The notes under the pieces were generated by a model, which saw only the letters and a program-made list of their open reading frames with translations, was not told the DNA's origin and searched no databases. Below, piece after piece: positions 2,129-48,344 of a DNA stretch of 48,344 bases. The stretch spans positions 1-48,344 of the forward strand of contig JAOAHX010000023.1 in NCBI GenBank assembly GCA_026415035.1, in the 5' to 3' direction. The position numbers and the translations under genes were made by a program. The DNA is from Thermodesulfobacteriota bacterium (GTDB lineage Bacteria > Desulfobacterota > BSN033 > UBA1163). The stretch's first letter is position 1; the number at the start of each line of letters is the position of its first letter.

Positions 2129-3133
2129 TCAAAAAGATCGGGGGGTTTGGAGAAAACGTGAAGTTATTTGCTCCCCAATTTCATACCACCCATTGCCGAA
2201 GACGGCGTCTTCGCCGACGTGGAGGTATTCTCCGGCCAGAAGCAGAGGAAGGAATTCCTCTAGGTCCCCTTCAAAGGTCATCTCTCCTATGAATCCGCTT
2301 TGGTCGTGATAGGTTTCCTGGGTTCGGCTTCTTCGCCGCATCCCGACCCATTCGAGGTTGGAATGAACTTTCATAACCTTTGTGGCCCGCTCGGCAAGCC
2401 CAGAAAAATCAACCTCCAGGGGTCCTCCGCAATAGGAGACGGAGAGGGCATTGATCCGATCCCGAAGCCGTCGGACAAGATGGTGGAATTCGGGGTCTCT
2501 GACGAGCCTGCTCTCCCCTTTCCGTCCGGTGGGGTTGTATCGGACCCGGGTCGGGGTCAGGAATCGGAGGGTCAACCGGTCGCCCCGGAACTTTTCGCTC
2601 CTTTTGAGCAAATCTTCCCCTCTGATCTGGGCCTCGAAATTGGAAACCACGTTGGTCTCGGGATCATAGATCGAATCGTATCGGCCCCCTCGTAAAACTT
2701 CGATTCCATCGAGACTGAACCTCCCCCTGTTCAAACCGATCCCGAACCTGCCGAGCTCTTTGAATGGAACGATCACATAAGGGAGGCCACGGATCCGATC
2801 CCCCACCAGGACCATCTCGAACCTGAGGGGGGTGGCGGAGGTGTATTCCGTGGCCCCATCCAAAGGGGGTTTGATAACGAACCCCCGGGGGAGATTCTTG
2901 AGCCTCTTAATCTTCCCTGCGTCAATGGGGTTGAAGATCAGGGTGTAGGCACACCTCTCTTGCATGCTGCAGGCGTCGCAGGTTTCTTGATCTCGATTCA
3001 AACAGGCCAGCCTTCTCAGGGAAGACCCAAAGGCGCCCCTCAGGACACTCCCCTTCCATTGACCAAAAAATCGTATGGCGAAGTTGGGTCTGAACGTGAA
3101 TCGATAGAGGGAGAAATAGAGTCTCTCGATCAT
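2129..3133 (-). CDS. cas6: CRISPR pre-crRNA endoribonuclease Cas6 (RAMP family)
   Basis: This 334-residue protein has the double-RAMP layout of the Cas6 family (PF10040 type). A Cys cluster, CDACSMQERC, lies near residues 52-61. The C-terminus carries the glycine-rich loop GEYLHVGEDAVFGNGWYEI typical of RAMP proteins, where an aromatic or small residue follows the G-x-G. Cas6 cuts the CRISPR transcript inside each repeat to leave an 8-nt 5' tag. The start at 3133 is preceded by a GAGG ribosome site, and a good promoter ends about 35 bases upstream. A 95-bp gap separates it from the Card1-like gene downstream. It may process the array at the other end of the window, but nothing in the sequence proves that link. 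Confidence 0.88.
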   Translation of the reverse strand: MIERLYFSLYRFTFRPNFAIRFFGQWKGSVLRGAFGSSLRRLACLNRDQETCDACSMQERCAYTLIFNPIDAGKIKRLKNLPRGFVIKPPLDGATEYTSATPLRFEMVLVGDRIRGLPYVIVPFKELGRFGIGLNRGRFSLDGIEVLRGGRYDSIYDPETNVVSNFEAQIRGEDLLKRSEKFRGDRLTLRFLTPTRVRYNPTGRKGESRLVRDPEFHHLVRRLRDRINALSVSYCGGPLEVDFSGLAERATKVMKVHSNLEWVGMRRRSRTQETYHDQSGFIGEMTFEGDLEEFLPLLLAGEYLHVGEDAVFGNGWYEIGEQITSRFLQTPRSF

Positions 3134-3174
3134 TCCGAGGTCCTCGCGGGCGAGGCCGAGCCTCGGTTTTCTCG

Positions 3175-3203
3175 ACTATACCAAAAACCGGATCAGGGTT
3201 CAA
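3175..3203 (-). promoter_or_regulatory. Sigma70-type promoter for cas6
   Basis: On the minus strand TTGAAC (3203-3198) is followed after exactly 17 bases by TATAGT (3180-3175). Transcription would start near 3168, giving a leader of about 35 bases to the cas6 ATG. Confidence 0.6.
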
Positions 3204-3412
3204 TCATTAAAACACTATCCCCCATTGCGTTTGGTATGAAGGGCCCACCCCGAAGGGTCCAAGCGGTCATTTCATTTAAACACAGGACCTCCCCCAGGGA
3301 GTGTCCTATGTTTTTAATTTTCGAAAAAAGGAAGAGGGGTTCGAAGGTCCGATTCTCTGCGATTTTTTGGGGGTGATTCGATCGAAAGAGAGGACGAGGG
3401 GGGCGCTAAAAT

Positions 3413-3440
3413 CGAGGAGGGAGCCAAAGGCCCCCTCCTC
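3413..3440 (-). terminator. Probable terminator of the bam-etf operon
   Basis: Immediately after the etfA stop the minus strand folds into a GC-rich hairpin with arms GAGGAGGG and CCCTCCTC and a short AAA-containing loop. It is followed by the weak T-rich run GATTTTA. The position directly behind the last gene supports a terminator, although the T run is short. Confidence 0.6.
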
Positions 3441-3470
3441 GGTCCCTAAAAGGTTCGCTGCTGCGAGGGT

Positions 3471-4471
3471 TTATTTCCCCTTTAATTCCTTCAGTTTGGC
3501 GGTGAGGGCGGGGAGGACTTCTTTAAAGTCTGCGACAATGCCGTAGTGGGCCACGTTGAAGATGTTGGCCTCTTTGTCCTTGTTGATCGCCACGATGTAC
3601 TTGGATCCCAGGTGGCCGGAGATATGGGACAGGCCCCGGAGAGGGCCACGGCAATATAGAGCTTGGGGCTCACCACCTTTCCGCTCTGGCCGATCTGGGC
3701 CGATACCGGCGCCCAGCCCTCGTCGCAGGCAGGTCGGGTGGCTCCCACCGCACCGCCCAACACCCGGGCAAGCTCCTGGATCATCTCCCAATTCTTGGCG
3801 CTTCCGATGCCCCGGCCTCCGGCCACGACGACCTCGGCATCTTCGAGCTTCACGCCCTCGACCTCCTCCTTGATCCGCTCGACGACCTTCACCTTGAGCG
3901 TCGAGGGATCGACTTTCCCTTCGACCGGGATCACCTTCCCCTGCCTCGAATCGTTCCGCTCGGCAGGGGGCAAAGTTTTGGGCCGGACCGTGGCCATCTG
4001 AGGACGGGCCGCTTTGGCCACCATCGTCGCATGGGCATTTCCTCCGAAGACCGGCCGGGTCGTGACGAGCAGTTTTGTGGAGGGATCGATGGAAAGGCTC
4101 ATGCAGTCCATCGCAAGGCCTCCTCCCAACCTTCCGTTGAGCCTCGGGGCGAGGTCAGAACCGATATCCGTGTAACCCATGAGCACGATCGAGGGAAGAA
4201 GGGCTTTGCAAAGGTTGGTCATCACCTGGGTATAGGCCTCGGGATGATACTGATCCAAAAAAGGGTCCTCCGCGATGTGGACCTGGTCGGCCCCGTAGGC
4301 GATCGCCTCCTGGGCCAGGCTCGAGGCCTTGCTTCCCATGAGAAGGGCGTTCAATGGCTCGCCGAGGTCATCGGCCAGTTTCCTTCCCGCTCCGAGGAGT
4401 TCAACGGTGACCGGTGCGAGCTTACCCTCCACCATCTCTCCGAGGATTAAAAGACCTTTATGCGCTTCCAT
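3471..4471 (-). CDS. etfA: Electron transfer flavoprotein alpha subunit, frameshifted
   Basis: EtfA with EtfB forms the FAD-containing electron carrier that collects electrons from acyl-CoA dehydrogenases. The frame from 4471 gives a normal N-terminus and the FAD-binding region (GGRGIGSAKNWEM, then GATRPACDEGW and QIGQSGKVVSPKLYIA). Near 3632 the reading frame changes. The proper C-terminus (SHISGHLGSKYIVAINKD, then HYGIVADFKEVLPALTAKL) continues in the next frame to the stop at 3471. A single missing base, probably a C after GGGGCC, restores about 333 residues of normal EtfA. The sharply conserved sequence on both sides suggests a sequencing or assembly error, or a very recent mutation. It follows etfB by about 33 bases and ends the operon. 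Confidence 0.9.
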
Positions 4472-41855: not shown

Positions 41856-42160
41856 TTTTTTTTGCTCCAGACTACCTTTTCGAATCTGTCGCATATGAAG
41901 TGAACGAGTACACAAGCTTGATTTTCCTCGATCCTTAGGGTAATAAAACAAATTGGTAACCGGTAGTATCTAACGTTTTTTCTGATGGCGCAGGGTTAGG
42001 GAATAAAGGCGCATGTCCCCCACCTGACCGCCCATCGCTCTTTTAACCCACTCCAAATGGCTTGGCTCGAACAATGGGATTTCTCCTGGTCCCGAAAAGA
42101 GCCGATTAATCGTATGGAGATAGGAATTTGTTCGAATTCAACTCGAAAGGAGGCGATCAT
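41856..42160. other. Leader region of the ABC importer operon
   Basis: Around 300 bases without a gene. A plausible promoter TTGATT (41918-41923), 17 bases, TAATAA (41941-41946) on the plus strand would give a leader of about 210 bases. I saw no clear riboswitch fold. Confidence 0.4.
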
Positions 42161-43762
42161 ATGTCATTTTTTATTTCATGGAGGAAGGCGGCAGCGCCAA
42201 CGTTATTGGGGATAACCACCCTATGCGCGATTTTTGCTCTTGCCTCCTCTGGTGAGGGGCAAACCCTAACGGCCGTGATGCATTCCGGTTTGAGGGTCCT
42301 CGACCCAATCGTCACCACGGCCCACATCGTCCGGAACCATGGCTACATGATCTACGATACCCTGCTGGGGACGGACGCTCATGGGAAAATCCAGCCTCAA
42401 ATGGTGGAGAAGTGGACGGTATCCGCCGATGGAAAGACCTATACTTTCACCTTGCGGAGCGGTCTGAAATGGCACGACGGCCTGCCGGTCAAGGCCGAGG
42501 ATTGCGTGGCATCGATCAAGCGCTTTGCGGAACAGGACAAGATGGGCCAGATCATGATGACCCTGGTGACGGCCATGAAGGTTTTGGATGACCGGACCTT
42601 CCAAATCGTGGTCAAGGAGCCGACCGACACCGTGCTGACCGCCTTGGCCAAACCGAGCGGCCTCGTCTGTTTCATGATGCCGAAGCGGATCGCCGAAACC
42701 CCTCCCACCACGCCGATCAAGGAACATATCGGCTCGGGCCCCTTTAAATTTGTCTCCGCAGAATTCAAGCCCGGCCTCAAAGCCGTATACGAGAAGAACA
42801 AGGACTACGTCCCCCGGAGCGAACCCCCGAGCGGAAGCGCCGGGGGAAAGGTCGTTCATGTGGATCGGGTCGAATGGGTGACCATGCCCGATCACATGAC
42901 CGCGGTCAACGCCCTCCTGGCCGGAGAGATCGACTACATGGAGTGGGTGCCTTACGACCTCCTGCCCATGGTCGAGGGGAAGAAAGAGATCGTCGTGACG
43001 GTGATGGAGAAACAGGGTTTCCAGACGATGCTCCGCTTCAACCATCTCCATCCGCCCTTCAACAATAAGCTCGCCCGTCAGGCGGCCATGTATGCCATCA
43101 GCCAGGAAGAGGTTTTGAAGGCCCAGGTGGGTAACCCCAAATACTATCGGACCTGCCCTGCCGTCTTCGGTTGCGGAACGCCTTTCGAAAGCTCCTGGGG
43201 CGCGGAGATGGTGGTCGGAGCCAATCTCGAAAAGGCCAGGGAACTCCTGAAAGAGGCCAAGTACGATGGGTCGCCGGTGGTCCTCCTCCAGCCCACGGAC
43301 GTCTTCACCATTCGGGCCCAACCCTTAGTGATCGCCTCGGCCCTCCGGAAGGTCGGGTTCAACGTCGACATGCAGGCGATGGATTGGATGACGGTGGTGA
43401 CCCGCCGAGCCAATATGGAACCGCCCGCCAAAGGCGGTTGGAACCTCCACTGCACCAACTGGCTGATCGTCGAGATCATGGACCCCCTGCGATCGCCCAT
43501 CGCTGCAGCCAACGGTCCGAAGGCCTGGTTCGGCTGGCCCGACGTCCCGAAGATCGAAGAACTCCGTCTGAGATTGGCCCGTACCCTGAAACCGGCGGAA
43601 CAGAAAAAACTGGTCGAAGAGATCCACAAACTGGTGATCGAAGAAGGGGTCCTCTTGCCGCTCGGGGAATTCTACATTCCGAGCGCCTATCGCTCGACCC
43701 TGACGGGCATTGTCGACTCTCCCGTTCCCTTCTTCTGGAACATTAAAAAGGCCGCAAAGTGA
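42161..43762 (+). CDS. Peptide/nickel-type ABC importer substrate-binding protein
   Basis: The product has 533 residues from MSFFISWRKAAAPTLLGITT, with an excellent ribosome site (AAAGGAGG, 42146-42153). A frame extended to 42128 would translate the ribosome site. A signal peptide ends near ALASSGEGQ. The SBP_bac_5 pattern is clear: MIYDTLLGTDAHGKIQPQMV, WTVSADGKTYTFTLRSGLKW and HDGLPVKAEDCVASIKRFAE. It binds the solute in the periplasm for the permeases downstream. The ligand is not evident; such proteins near metabolic genes can also bind opines or aromatic-linked amides. Confidence 0.93.
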   Translation: MSFFISWRKAAAPTLLGITTLCAIFALASSGEGQTLTAVMHSGLRVLDPIVTTAHIVRNHGYMIYDTLLGTDAHGKIQPQMVEKWTVSADGKTYTFTLRSGLKWHDGLPVKAEDCVASIKRFAEQDKMGQIMMTLVTAMKVLDDRTFQIVVKEPTDTVLTALAKPSGLVCFMMPKRIAETPPTTPIKEHIGSGPFKFVSAEFKPGLKAVYEKNKDYVPRSEPPSGSAGGKVVHVDRVEWVTMPDHMTAVNALLAGEIDYMEWVPYDLLPMVEGKKEIVVTVMEKQGFQTMLRFNHLHPPFNNKLARQAAMYAISQEEVLKAQVGNPKYYRTCPAVFGCGTPFESSWGAEMVVGANLEKARELLKEAKYDGSPVVLLQPTDVFTIRAQPLVIASALRKVGFNVDMQAMDWMTVVTRRANMEPPAKGGWNLHCTNWLIVEIMDPLRSPIAAANGPKAWFGWPDVPKIEELRLRLARTLKPAEQKKLVEEIHKLVIEEGVLLPLGEFYIPSAYRSTLTGIVDSPVPFFWNIKKAAK

Positions 43763-43766
43763 CCCC

Positions 43767-44708
43767 ATGCTGTCCTACATCGCACGGCGCCTACTCGCCA
43801 CCATTCCCGTCATGGGAATGGTGGCGGCCATCGTATTCGCCATCCTGAGGCTGACACCTGGCGACCCAGCGGCCATCCTCGCAGGGGACGCAGCGACCCC
43901 CCAGCAATTGGAAAGGATACGCAATCAGATGGGGCTGGACCGTCCCATCCACATTCAGTTCCTCCTTTGGTTGGGGCAACTCCTTCGAGGCGATCTGGGG
44001 GTCTCCCTCATCTCGGGCACCTCCGTAGGCGGGATGATCGCCGACCGTTTCGGTCCCTCTTTGGCCCTGGCTCTCTCCACGATCCTCTTCACGGTCCTCA
44101 TCGCGATCCCCTTAGGGGTGATCGCTGCCTGGAGGCAGGGGACCCTTCTCGATCGGGCCGTGATGGCCTTCTCCGTCCTCGGATTTTCGACCCCCGTTTT
44201 CGTCACAGGCTACCTGCTGGTTTTTCTCTTTTCCATCAAGTTCGGCTGGTTCCCCGTCCAGGGTTACCGACCTCTCGCTTCTGGGTTCTGGCCCTTTTAC
44301 CACAGGCTGATCCTGCCGACCCTGGCCCTAAGCACCATCTACATCGCGCTGGTGGCCCGCATCACCCGCACGAGCGTCCTTGAGGTGATGGGAGAGGACT
44401 ACATCCGGACGGCCAGGGCGAAGGGCGTCAGAGAGAGCGCGGTTCTGATCCGGCATGCCCTTCGCAACGCCGCCGTCCCCATCGCCACCATCGTCGGGAT
44501 CGGCCTGGCCATGTTGATCAGCGGCGTCGTGGTCACAGAGTCGGTCTTCAATCTCCCTGGACTGGGACGCCTGGTCGTGGAAGCCGTCCTGGCCCGTGAT
44601 TATCCGGTGATCCAGGGTCTGATTCTGCTCTTCTCTTTGATCTACATCCTGATAAACCTTGCCGTCGACATCCTCTACACCCTTTTCGATCCCAGGATTC
44701 GTTACTGA
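43767..44708 (+). CDS. ABC importer permease (DppB type)
   Basis: The product has 313 residues from MLSYIARRLLATIPVMGMVA. It has the family's N-terminal segment, then TPGDPAAILAGDAATPQQLE, and the EAA loop VMGEDYIRTARAKGVRESAV that contacts the ATPase. Six membrane segments are expected. It begins five bases after the binding-protein stop codon. Confidence 0.94.
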   Translation: MLSYIARRLLATIPVMGMVAAIVFAILRLTPGDPAAILAGDAATPQQLERIRNQMGLDRPIHIQFLLWLGQLLRGDLGVSLISGTSVGGMIADRFGPSLALALSTILFTVLIAIPLGVIAAWRQGTLLDRAVMAFSVLGFSTPVFVTGYLLVFLFSIKFGWFPVQGYRPLASGFWPFYHRLILPTLALSTIYIALVARITRTSVLEVMGEDYIRTARAKGVRESAVLIRHALRNAAVPIATIVGIGLAMLISGVVVTESVFNLPGLGRLVVEAVLARDYPVIQGLILLFSLIYILINLAVDILYTLFDPRIRY

Positions 44709-44716
44709 CCAGATCC

Positions 44717-45652
44717 ATGTCGGAGAATCTGAAAGAAAGTCGGACAGAAAGAACCTCGAGGGGCCTTCCCGGTCCATCGGAAAACGGTTCGATCCCATCG
44801 CCGGAGGGCGAATCCTTTCTCCTCGGACACTTTAAAAGAACGGTCTTGAAAGGGCCCTCCCTTTTGGCTCTTTTGGTGGTTGGGACCATCGGATTAGTGG
44901 CCCTCCTCGCCCCCTTTCTGAGCACGAGCGATCCCATCGCCCTCAATCCCGCCCAACGCCTGAAACCACCCTCCTTCGCCCATTGGTTTGGGACAGACTC
45001 ATACGGTCGAGATATTTACTCCAGGGTCATTTACGGTTCCAGGGTCTCCCTCGTAGTCGGCTTGGGCGCCGCCCTGATGAGCGTTGCGATCGGATTGCTC
45101 ATCGGAATGATCGCGGGATTTATCCGTTTGGCCGATGCTTTCATCATGCGTTTCATGGACGGGCTGATGGCCATTCCCGGCATCCTCTTGGCGATCGCCA
45201 TGGTTTCCGTCGCGGGGGCAAGTCTGTTCACGGTCCTCGTGGCCATCACCATTCCCGAAATCCCGCGGGTGGTGAGGCTCGTGCGGGGGGTGATTCTGAC
45301 CGTCAAGAACGAACCTTATGTGGAAGCCGCCCTTTCCCTCGGGACACCCATCCCAATCCTCCTCCTCCGCCACATGCTTCCCAACACCATCCCTCCGGCG
45401 ATTGTCCAGGGGACCTATATCTTCGCCTCGGCGATTCTGACCGAGGCCATCCTCGGCTTTTTGGGAGCGGGCATCCCGCCGGAGAACCCCTCCTGGGGAA
45501 ATATCATGGCCGAGGGAAGGATGTTCTTCCAATTGATGCCAGGGCTCATCCTCTATCCCGGCCTCTTTCTCTCCCTGACGGTATTGAGCGTAAACGTTCT
45601 GGGCGATGCCATGCGGGACGCCCTCGACCCAAGGATGGCTCGGAGGTTGTGA
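44717..45652 (+). CDS. ABC importer permease (DppC type)
   Basis: The product has 311 residues. It has the DppC features FGTDSYGRDIYSRVIYGSRV near residue 90 and an EAA loop PYVEAALSLGTPIPILLLRH. The C-terminus has FLGAGIPPENPSWGNIMAEG. A hydrophilic N-terminal 35 residues precede the first membrane segment. It starts eight bases after the DppB-type gene. Confidence 0.94.
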   Translation: MSENLKESRTERTSRGLPGPSENGSIPSPEGESFLLGHFKRTVLKGPSLLALLVVGTIGLVALLAPFLSTSDPIALNPAQRLKPPSFAHWFGTDSYGRDIYSRVIYGSRVSLVVGLGAALMSVAIGLLIGMIAGFIRLADAFIMRFMDGLMAIPGILLAIAMVSVAGASLFTVLVAITIPEIPRVVRLVRGVILTVKNEPYVEAALSLGTPIPILLLRHMLPNTIPPAIVQGTYIFASAILTEAILGFLGAGIPPENPSWGNIMAEGRMFFQLMPGLILYPGLFLSLTVLSVNVLGDAMRDALDPRMARRL

Positions 45653-45705
45653 CCGGTGCGAAGGCCATCCACAGAGGGTTTAAGGAATTCCGAGGACGCC
45701 ATCCG

Positions 45706-47361
45706 ATGAATCCTGAGATCAACACCAGGGTCTTGATCGTCGACGATCTGTCGGTGGCTGTGGTAGGAGCCTCCACAGTCCACAGGGTGGTCGAAAACGT
45801 CAGCTTCGATGTGCGATCGGGCGAGACCCTCTGTGTCGTGGGCGAGTCAGGATCGGGGAAATCGGTCACCGCGCTTTCCATCATGGGTTTGCTTCCCAAG
45901 GGGGCCCTCGAACCCCATGGGGCCATCTACGTCGACGGCGAAGACGTTTTGGCGGCGAGTCAGAGGCGGCTCCGGGAACTCCGGGCCACGCGCATGGCCA
46001 TGGTCTTTCAGGAGCCGATGACCGCACTCAACCCGGTCCAGCCCGTTGGCAACCAGATCGATGAGGTCCTGCGTGTCCATACCCGGCTTTCCAAAAAAGA
46101 GCGCCGCGAAAGGGTCTTGGAGATGCTCGATGCCGTCCACCTGCCCGATGTGAGACACCTATACGAGGCCTATCCTCACCAACTCTCAGGGGGGCAGCGC
46201 CAGCGGATCGTCATCGCCATGGCCTTGATCCTCAACCCGAAGCTCCTAATCGCGGATGAACCCACCACCGCTCTAGACGTCACCACGCAGAAACAGATCC
46301 TCTCTCTCATCCGGGAACTCCAGGAAAAACACCAGACGGCCGTGATGTTCATCACCCACGATTTCGGGGTCGTAGCGGAAATTGCGGATCGGATCGTGGT
46401 CATGAACCGCGGCCGGGTCGTGGAGACTGGAAGGAAGGAAGAGATCCTATCCAGTCCTCGCCAACCCTATACCAGAATACTGATCTCTTCTGTGCCGAGC
46501 CTGATCCCAAAGAGTCGTCAGAAGCCCACCGGAGGAACCGTCCTTCGGGTCAGGGGCTTGAGCAAGATTTTCGCAGAAAGGAGGTTCTTGGCCGCCCGTC
46601 GCACGGTCGTGGCCGCCCGGGAAGTCGATCTGACGATCCAACGGGGGGAAATCGTCGGGGTGGTGGGCGAGTCGGGTTCGGGCAAATCGACGGTGGCCCG
46701 CTGCATCGTGCGGCTGATCGAACCTACCTCTGGCTCCATCTTCATCGATTCGACCGACTTAGCCAAACTCTCCTGGAAAAAATTAAGGCCCTTCCGGAAA
46801 CGGATCCAGATCATCTTTCAGGATCCCTACCGGTCCCTCAATCCCAGGCGACAGGTAGGGGATTCGCTGGTCGAAGGCCTGTTGAATTTTGGAACGCCCC
46901 GGTCCCAGGCCCTGGCGAAAGTCCGAGAGCTACTGCGGCTGGTGGGGATGGATCCCGACTGCCTTCAGAGGTTCCCCCACCAATTCTCCGGAGGAGAACG
47001 CCAGCGCCTTTGCATCGCCCGTGCGCTCACCCTCGATCCAGATATCTTGGTCGCGGACGAGCCGGTTTCCTCTCTCGATGTCTCGGTGCAGGCCCAGGTA
47101 TTGAAGTTGATCGAAGAGATCCGAGAACGAACCGGCGTCGCCGTCCTCTTCATCACCCACGACTTGCGGGTGGCAGCCCAGATCTGCGACACGATCGTGG
47201 TCATGCAGAGGGGCCGCCTCGTCGAGGCCGGCGCCGCGGAGGAGGTCCTGACCTCCCCACGTGAAGAATATACGCGTACTCTGATCGAGGCAGCCCCCGG
47301 CCGCCACTGGGATTTTCAGAACTTCAGACCGCTCTTGACAAAGGTCGCTCTGACCCCCTGA
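45706..47361 (+). CDS. Fused dual ATPase of the ABC importer (DppD-DppF)
   Basis: The product has 551 residues. The start I chose is the ATG at 45706 (MNPEINTRVLIVDDLSVAVV). The open frame runs much further upstream, but only as a shadow of the permease gene. Two complete nucleotide-binding domains are joined: first Walker A GESGSGKSV, signature LSGGQRQR and Walker B LLIADEP; second Walker A GESGSGKST, signature FSGGERQR and Walker B ILVADEP. H-loops (FITHDFG and FITHDLR) follow each. Fusion of the two ATPases occurs in GsiA/YejF-type systems. It ends the operon. Confidence 0.93.
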   Translation: MNPEINTRVLIVDDLSVAVVGASTVHRVVENVSFDVRSGETLCVVGESGSGKSVTALSIMGLLPKGALEPHGAIYVDGEDVLAASQRRLRELRATRMAMVFQEPMTALNPVQPVGNQIDEVLRVHTRLSKKERRERVLEMLDAVHLPDVRHLYEAYPHQLSGGQRQRIVIAMALILNPKLLIADEPTTALDVTTQKQILSLIRELQEKHQTAVMFITHDFGVVAEIADRIVVMNRGRVVETGRKEEILSSPRQPYTRILISSVPSLIPKSRQKPTGGTVLRVRGLSKIFAERRFLAARRTVVAAREVDLTIQRGEIVGVVGESGSGKSTVARCIVRLIEPTSGSIFIDSTDLAKLSWKKLRPFRKRIQIIFQDPYRSLNPRRQVGDSLVEGLLNFGTPRSQALAKVRELLRLVGMDPDCLQRFPHQFSGGERQRLCIARALTLDPDILVADEPVSSLDVSVQAQVLKLIEEIRERTGVAVLFITHDLRVAAQICDTIVVMQRGRLVEAGAAEEVLTSPREEYTRTLIEAAPGRHWDFQNFRPLLTKVALTP

Positions 47362-47700
47362 CTTTCTTAACAAATCTATGAATTCCTTCATGAAGCATCC
47401 CTACACACAAACGGCATAGTCCAAAATTTAAGGGCACTCTCGAAAAAAGTGCCTCTCCCCATCCCTCATTTCCAACACCATAAGAGGACGAAGGGGTTCG
47501 AGGCCCCACCGGCGAAAACATCTCAACATATGTTTTCTTCTTGCACCATTCAAACCTTCCTCTGAAACTCCTTGTCGAAATAGGTTGAATAAGAGCCCAG
47601 GAGAACCCTCGCCAACCTGAGATCCTCTGCCCCGCTCCCGTCCCTATCCGCCAACTAATCCCTAATCTCTAATCTCTAATCCCTCCGACCGAAGGTCGCC
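47362..47700. other. Non-coding stretch before the CRISPR array, with a solo cassette end
   Basis: There is no gene. A short hairpin GGCACT/AGTGCC (47433-47453) and an AT-rich inverted repeat GAAAACAT/ATGTTTTC (47514-47537) may terminate the importer transcript. From about 47655 to 47700 a run of CCCTAATCTCTAATC-type repeats and CGACC-GAA-GGTCG copies the right end of the cassette found at 47799-48267. Confidence 0.55.
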
Positions 47701-47798
47701 GTCGCAATCCCTTCTTAATCAGGTCTCTCTCTCCAACCGTGATTCCTTGGGGGTCATGGTACTGGGAGGATCTGTCGCAATCCCTTCTTAATCAGGTC

Positions 47799-48267
47799 GG
47801 CCCGCAAGGCGGGAAGGGATCAGACATCAGGGATTTAGGGATGAGCTTTCGAGATAAGACCTACCATCTTGTTCAACATCTTCAAGATCTCCCCCACCAA
47901 AGCCTCCCGATCACGATATGTCTCCTCATCCATCCACCCTAAATCATAAGCCTTAACCAACCAATTGAGCGTCTCCGTCGCAGACCCCCTGGCAACCATT
48001 AAATAATGCACATACTCCCTCCCCCTACGGCGACCAAAACCCTCACTGATATTGGCACTAATCGACCCAGAAGACCTCAACACCTGATCCGCAAGGACTC
48101 GCCCCGCTACCCCCCTCGGAAATCTCCCCACATCTTTCACTATACTCAAAAATAGCTCATGACTCTTCTGCCAAACCACCAAATCCCGAAAATCCCTCAC
48201 CCTCTCCAAAACCAATCCCCCTTATCCCTAATCCCTGATCCCTAACTCCTCCCGACCGAAGGTCGCC
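47799..48267. mobile_element. IVS-type four-helix-bundle cassette inserted in a CRISPR repeat
   Basis: The 469-bp segment sits between a 25-nt partial repeat and a full repeat whose first 25 nt are identical to it, as if the insertion had duplicated its target. Each end, read inward, is GG, then a 5-bp stem/3-nt loop hairpin (CCCGC-AAG-GCGGG on the left; CGACC-TTC-GGTCG on the right), then GGGATCAGGGATTAGGGAT-like inverted repeats. The only gene inside is the four-helix-bundle protein. Confidence 0.6.
47835..48215 (-). CDS. Four-helix-bundle protein of the 23S rRNA intervening-sequence (IVS) family
   Basis: The product has 126 residues. It shows the family pattern: RDFRDLVVWQKSHELFLSIV at the start, SSGSISANISEGFGRRRGRE near residues 48-67, and YLMVARGSATETLNWLVKAY, with C-terminal LGWMDEETYRD. 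The relatives are encoded in 23S rRNA intervening sequences, and as Avd they assist diversity-generating retroelements. Their molecular role is unclear. The frame opens with TTG at 48215; nearby TTG or GTG codons are alternatives. It is the only gene in the inserted cassette. Confidence 0.88.
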   Translation of the reverse strand: MVLERVRDFRDLVVWQKSHELFLSIVKDVGRFPRGVAGRVLADQVLRSSGSISANISEGFGRRRGREYVHYLMVARGSATETLNWLVKAYDLGWMDEETYRDREALVGEILKMLNKMVGLISKAHP

Positions 48268-48344
48268 GTCGCAATCCCTTCTTAATCAGGTCTCTCTCTC
48301 CAACGACTGGGCATACTGAAAGGAGGGTGGATGATGCAGTTGTC

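Follow-up and report, generated by a model that had tools for sequence, protein, structure and literature searches.

An IVP gene cassette with inverted heptamer tracts inside a CRISPR repeat, and the class of short-unit tract cassettes to which it belongs

Introduction

The closest described counterparts of the locus reported here are the intervening sequences (IVSs) present in the 23S rRNA of Leptospira and Coxiella. These sequences, of about 430-470 nt, are transcribed together with the host RNA and have no transposase; their terminal complementary sequences form a stem, whose loop contains a PF05635 ORF, and for decades IVSs have been regarded as potentially mobile, a mobility that is suspected and unproven (PMC4990558). 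The Xanthomonas S23 protein of PDB entry 2GSC is a toroidal homopentamer (PMC4990558), and a homologous pentameric four-helix-bundle fold is found in the Avd protein of diversity-generating retroelements (DGRs; PMC10053308; 2GSC match). The PF05635 genes (23S rRNA intervening-sequence protein), indicated below as IVP genes, are common: we found them in 67 of the 99 relatives searched, in numbers that reach 17 in a single genome. No function has been agreed on for them since their discovery in rRNA.

A second point of comparison is offered by the REP/REPIN-RAYT systems, in which a protein family is tied to its own short intergenic repeats, and gene-less repeat pairs occur in the same genomes. 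The RAYT protein is a Y1 (HUH) transposase. In addition, several bacterial heptamer repeats have been described in their own right, such as GGGAATC in Xanthomonas, GGGGA(C/T)T in Nostoc, TAACTGA in Beggiatoaceae and the cyanobacterial STRR (PMC4692102, PMC4679880). In the parts of these two papers that are drawn on here, the heptamer repeats share with the tracts reported below the period, the intergenic position and, in Xanthomonas, the arrangement in inverted pairs, whereas their description there makes no connection with IVP genes or CRISPR repeats. Within the open-access literature that was searched, we found no description of tract-bounded IVP cassettes or of their insertion into CRISPR repeats.

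Results

The window, that is the whole stretch of 48,344 nucleotides analysed here, is the entire contig C23 of assembly G000 (3.06 Mb in 81 contigs, 97% complete). In its last kilobase the plus strand carries, in this order, a tract, a hairpin, the repeat R1, a spacer, the partial repeat R2', an insert, the repeat R3 and the start of a further spacer, at which the contig ends. Specifically, the complete 37-nt repeat R1 (47701-47737, minus strand) is followed by a 36-nt spacer (47738-47773), by R2' (47774-47798, minus strand), by the 469-bp inserted element (47799-48267, minus strand), by the complete 37-nt repeat R3 (48268-48304, minus strand) and by the first 40 nt of the next spacer (48305-48344). 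The three repeats are identical across the 25 nt that they have in common, and no other copy is present anywhere in the assembly. The identical 37-nt repeats and the spacers of about 36 nt between them are those of a CRISPR array; the Rfam CRISPR-DR8 match of R1 is weak (E=0.003, under the gathering score), and the same repeat type adjoins cas1 in two relatives (L186/L182 in G011 and L187/L183 in G005). A simple tandem duplication was rejected, given that the spacers beside R3 and R2' differ. The peptide-type ABC transporter operon at 42128-47361 (solute-binding protein, two permeases and fused ATPases) ends directly before the array. Of the window proteins scanned, a DprA-like one matched ShosA models; apart from it, neither Cas nor defence genes were found. 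Neither the IVP nor the repeat was matched in the phage and viral collections.

The leader and cas2 positions in the arrays of genomes G402 and G484 indicate that the transcribed sense of the repeat is the reverse complement, GTTGGAGAGAGA followed by GACCTGATTAAGAAGGGATTGCGAC; therefore, R2' corresponds to nt 13-37 of the repeat, and the IVP gene is co-oriented with the array. An earlier sequence-only reading had described a repeat broken after nt 25 of the plus strand, a 469-bp insert and a full 37-nt repeat; these coordinates proved exact, with 25 of 25 nucleotides identical. The insertion described in the same reading is supported, while the reading overlooked both the transcribed sense of the repeat and the identical hairpin and tract found at R1 (see below).

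The insert contains the IVP gene alone, with no recombinase. This four-helix-bundle gene (47835-48215, minus strand; 126 aa from the first TTG) matches PF05635 at E=3.5e-27 (95.1 bits against a cut-off of 33.8) and the NCBIfam model TIGR02436 at 2.7e-28, and its PDB relatives are 2GSC and 2RLD. On one side, a terminal hairpin CCCGC-AAG-GCGGG (47801-47813) lies 2 nt from the R2' junction, next to the 3' tract (47815-47842, minus strand), which overlaps the gene end and is the complement of the 5' tract. The latter (48219-48247, minus strand) lies upstream of the gene, is G-rich on the coding strand and consists of GGGATTA/GGGATCA heptamers. On the other side, the hairpin CCGACCGAAGGTCGCC (48252-48267) abuts R3, its stem and loop CGACC-GAA-GGTCG being placed 2 nt inside the insert end. 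The single four-helix-bundle gene, the inverted repeats and the hairpins 2 nt from the ends, all noted previously from the letters, were confirmed. The two GGGATTA-type tracts form an inverted repeat (I2) with 85% complementarity over 20 nt (47815-47834 and 48224-48243), and in the RNA fold of the insert they close one long stem around the gene (z -2.3), as the complementary ends of the 23S rRNA IVSs do around their ORF; the cassette found in the related genome G484 likewise folds into one stem around its gene (z -3.5).

A second pair of end features is found beside R1, on the trailer side of the array. A solo GGGATTA-type heptamer tract (47655-47684, minus strand; period-7 score 18) of 30-32 nt is 81% alike to the element's own tract, and the 48-kb window contains two such tracts, this one included, against none in 10 shuffles. 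Between this tract and R1 lies a hairpin (47685-47700) identical to the one abutting R3; the two form the direct repeat family D2 (58 nt, 97%), in which 53 nt of hairpin plus repeat are identical at R1 and R3. We read the solo tract as the relic of a second element end, without gene; if the window element is an insertion, the hairpin and tract at R1 have to be explained by a further insertion or by rearrangement.

When 84,980 species genomes were scanned, the three proteins found to be nearest to that of the window (L191-L193) all proved to abut parts of this repeat type. CRISPR-resident cassettes were found in the window and in the genomes G484, G402, G400, G401, G010 and G011, all inserted in the sense of the array; besides L191-L193, the CRISPR-abutting members comprise L288/L316 (G484), L289, which is the same as L071 (G010), and, in G402, another copy that is truncated. 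The arrays of G402 adjoin Cas1 and Cas2. In the same genome, the stretch between two CRISPR arrays holds, after the truncated IVP, a toxin-antitoxin-like UPF0175/DUF3368 gene pair (L284:7712-8513, contig C1). Hence a CRISPR repeat, which had been considered an unusual landing site, does carry the insertion, and it is a recurrent one in the relatives and one kind of site among several.

The richest case is the G484 array, whose approximately 20 repeats carry four two-sided insertions from about three tract families. The IVP cassette leaves the repeat at nt 37 on the left and re-enters at nt 13 on the right, with a duplication of 25 nt; two gene-less CGTGTCC elements have left junctions at about nt 31 and right junctions at nt 15 and 13, and one gene-less AGTCAGG element has junctions at nt 32 and 13. 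Two more repeats stop at about nt 31 in a CGTGTCC tract, as one-sided array ends. When the gene-less CGTGTCC segments were compared with IVP cassettes by blastn over part of the database, no alignment was found, and therefore their link to the CGTGTC family of IVPs rests on the unit only. Several of the G484 insertions may be copies generated by recombination within the array, and the G402 and G400 cases may have a common ancestry. The G484 locus L316 (contig C148, reverse strand 2388-4343) comprises one array interrupted by at least four insertions and, in addition, a second copy of the leader, at which another array begins; the interrupted array is a natural record of repeated insertion into CRISPR repeats.

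Among these loci, nt 13 is the right junction of the window element, of three insertions in G484, of one each in G402 and G010, and of two in G011; in L316, L285 and L083 the junction is the same as at R2' of the window. The G010 junction is counted as 13, since the computed value of 8 reflects a chance match of the preceding bases. One right junction is at nt 15, and the left junctions vary by family between nt 31 and 37. At L083 in G011, two tandem GGTTCAT cassettes have junctions at 32-33 and 13. Where both sides survive (G484 and G011), the duplication is 17-25 nt. Given these recurrent junctions and duplications, the 25-nt target duplication proposed for the window stands, and so does the proposal of an IVP-family unit of mobile type with shared ends, the closest relatives having the matching anatomy. 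In each case the R' copies closely match the local repeat. This favours separate insertion events, but the copies may also have been made alike by concerted evolution inside a genome. In a quick tree, six of the seven IVPs of one clade are CRISPR-resident (SH-aLRT 94, unstarred), while L083 belongs to a separate lineage.

Most IVP copies are located between the genes of operons, CRISPR repeats being one landing site among several. In almost all loci of the relatives the gene is bounded by inverted tracts of 6-8-nt tandem units, each cassette having its own unit. The complementarity between 5' and 3' flanks exceeded all 40 shuffles at 62 of 77 loci of the relatives and at 39 of 72 loci from other phyla, and a period of 7 stands out near the gene (0.38 and 0.36, compared to 0.26 in the far flanks). 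The TTAGGGA tract of the window has no exact copy in the other copies of family f1, a result that led to the any-period test. Among the copies of one tract family, the DNA is alike only from about -50 to the stop codon +30, with unrelated surroundings. The cassettes are tightly fitted between genes: the tract starts at a median of 4 nt after the upstream stop codon (49 loci), the element end precedes the next start codon by a median of 16 nt (42 loci), and 59 of 65 cassettes are co-oriented with both neighbours, as estimated from simple open frames. On five named cyanobacterial plasmids, tracts flank the IVP gene, with clear inverted complementarity on four. At L319, L321 and L322 (plasmids of Pseudanabaena, Anabaena sp. 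90 and Picosynechococcus PCC 7003), IVP genes with heptamer or octamer tracts lie inside cas operons, in the arrangements cas6-IVP-cas4 (type I-D) and cas10-IVP-cmr3 (type III-B). In conclusion, the PF05635 genes with their inverted tracts, built of tandem units of 6-8 nt, constitute a large, hardly described class of cassettes.

The tract unit follows the protein. Across 70 loci, it is similar in 74% of the pairs with a protein identity of at least 65%, and in about 1% of those with an identity below 55%. For these close pairs, dS mostly exceeds 1 or is saturated, and dN/dS lies between 0.03 and 0.19 with one exception at 0.33, which indicates that the IVP is under purifying selection and that the unit outlasts neutral sequence. 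This retention of the unit despite synonymous saturation suggests that the protein reads its own repeats, that is, that the IVP may recognise the tract unit of its own cassette. Homogenisation within a tract could help to keep the unit, but cannot explain the match between distant loci.

Queries from which the cassette had been cut out, with the flanks joined, were then matched to related genomes. The joined flanks of L056, L055, L042 and L045 found uninterrupted loci in 1-7 related genomes each; the L056 site is uninterrupted in G006, G007, G003, G009, G004, G005 and G000, and the L055 site is empty in G000, carries a gene-less tract in G006 and gene-less inverted tract pairs in G007 and G009. 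As to tract density in sampled stretches, we counted 45 tracts in 352 kb of G007 (16 IVP genes) and 12 in 40 kb of G030 (10 IVP genes), two values that are overstated since the samples lie partly near IVP genes; there were 3 in 400 kb of G000 (one IVP gene), and 3 in 200 kb, mostly codon-like, of five genomes without IVP. The comparison of empty and filled sites that the sequence-only reading had proposed thus yields empty orthologous sites for other members of the class, while the operon copies lack the duplication: among 49 well-bounded cassettes tested for flanking duplications, none was found beyond chance except at L083, a CRISPR case. Therefore, the duplication may be special to CRISPR repeats. 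At four intergenic sites, different tract families occupy the same position in different species (L052/L062/L078/L098; L042/L085; L046/L067; L055/L058). Such shared sites are either hot sites or cases of cassette replacement, and the difference in type between species indicates that replacement at old sites also occurs.

Discussion

What was observed in the window is confirmed and recurs in other genomes, and it extends to a whole class of putatively mobile cassettes. Compared to the 23S rRNA IVSs, the window element resides not in rRNA but in a CRISPR array; the cassettes differ further in that their ends are degenerate 6-8-nt tandem tracts with small hairpins, in that they leave 17-25-nt duplications in CRISPR repeats, and in that gene-less derivatives exist. 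With REP/REPIN-RAYT systems they share a protein tied to its own repeats, as is evident from the co-divergence of unit and protein, and the spread of gene-less pairs in the same genomes; unlike RAYT, the IVP has no Y1 (HUH) transposase domain, PF05635 being the only domain found in the product of the window insert, and its repeats are tandem heptamers that differ between elements. The cassettes represent an IVS variant whose ends and targets are new and which probably has a protein-repeat code.

The explanation that we consider probable is that the window insert is an IVP tract cassette of mobile type, which entered a CRISPR repeat and duplicated nt 13-37. Such a cassette consists of a hairpin, a short-unit tract, one PF05635 gene, the complementary tract and a second hairpin, and would be transcribed within a host RNA, be it an operon mRNA or a pre-crRNA. 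In that RNA, base pairing between the two tracts is expected to enclose the gene in a single long stem, like that of the 23S rRNA IVSs, which would allow the insert to be excised or tolerated. The fold is known to form a toroidal pentamer, which would bind the cassette's own repeat units, and the resulting protein-nucleic acid complex may be what is propagated, CRISPR repeats being among the landing sites, recurrently used and sequence-specific. Target opening and end joining would depend on an enzyme that the cassette does not encode. We favour a cassette protein that binds its own tracts, with the sense orientation deriving from an asymmetric target or from selection within transcripts. The mostly fixed right junction and the family-variable left junction suggest one specific and one loose cut, or joining at a preferred exposed stretch. 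An IVS-like mobile cassette with a REP/RAYT-like logic, without a known recombinase, is in our opinion the best reading; the term mobile rests on distribution, since no recombinase was identified.

Several features of the locus could also be accounted for by a rearrangement of the array, in which a trailer-end cassette (repeat, hairpin, tract and gene) was copied upstream by recombination between repeats, with R2' as an illegitimate junction. R1 also runs into hairpin and tract, and the cassettes of G402 and G400 occupy the array end, directly after the last or only repeat; illegitimate junctions should however scatter, whereas nt 13 recurs as the right junction in separate genomes with differing repeats and tract families, and the differing spacers beside R3 and R2' are not those of a simple tandem duplication, which makes this reading unlikely. 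We regard as rather doubtful the proposal that the IVP clade works with adaptation or with the arrays and is kept there for its function. The concentration of one clade in CRISPR loci (six of seven) and the cyanobacterial plasmids with an IVP between cas6 and cas4 or between cas10 and cmr3 speak for it, as does a large CRISPR survey which counts the 23S rRNA IVP as one of the novel associations found for adaptation modules (PMC10910872). Gene-less cassettes occur nevertheless at the same positions, the array copy of G402 is truncated after about 24 codons, and most IVP genes lie in unrelated operons, the cas-operon copies carrying tracts like ordinary ones. The association reported in that survey can possibly be read in another way, the IVP being a passenger rather than an accessory.

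The use of a host reverse transcriptase (RT) had been suggested from the sequence, and an Avd-like IVP (PMC10053308) whose RNA stem is copied by such an enzyme into transcribed targets would agree with the sense orientation of nearly all copies; target-primed reverse transcription with a single fixed nick would likewise account for duplications of variable length such as those of 17-25 nt seen here, whose right side is mostly fixed. Yet in a profile search at E<=1e-10 there was no PF00078 match in G000, nor in 25 of the 42 relatives with at least three IVP genes, the RT-free genomes including the single-contig assemblies G042 and G059, and IVP and RT are not significantly associated (Fisher p 0.22). 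The cassette differs from DGRs, to which Avd belongs, in having no RT, and RT-driven retrotransposition appears very improbable. The other suggestion, integration of the cassette by Cas1-Cas2 as an oversized spacer, finds a point in its favour in the left end, which in the window as well as in G484 and G400 coincides exactly with the end of the repeat; against it, Cas1-Cas2 would copy the whole 37 nt and insert about 36, whereas a partial repeat of 25 nt lies on the opposite side of a 469-bp insert, and the left junctions of some tract families fall inside the repeat, at nt 31-33. Cas1 was not found in G000, which is not decisive as the contig breaks inside the array. Taken together, these data leave Cas1-Cas2 integration hardly credible. 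An assembly artefact might be feared from the contig end 40 nt away and from the 53-nt exact repeat of hairpin and R common to R1 and R3; however, the R2' junction is unique sequence, and the same anatomy recurs in independent assemblies of other genomes, which argues against misassembly to the point that we give it almost no weight.

In the preferred reading of an IVS-like mobile cassette, the repeat code, the empty sites, the gene-less derivatives and the landing site render the mobility of IVSs open to direct binding and mobility tests. Insertion into a CRISPR repeat breaks up the array, and it offers a marked target with a known pre-insertion sequence. More tentatively, PF05635 proteins could be the recognition subunit of an undescribed transposition system, each reading the heptamer or octamer tract of the cassette that encodes it. 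Together with a common host enzyme they would bring cassettes and gene-less pairs to transcribed junctions in many phyla, and CRISPR repeats would be a target recognised by its sequence; we hold this to be possible, and if true, it would explain both the long-unexplained mobility of 23S rRNA IVSs and much of the heptamer repeat content of bacteria.

Finally, tracts also occur in denser arrangements. At L016 (contig C10 of G050), the 3' part of an IVP cassette is present in 3-4 tandem copies about 182 nt apart, each with a tract, and at L158 (contig C3 of G007, 2842-3074) several different tract families stand abreast within 230 bp, as if tracts inserted into or beside tracts.
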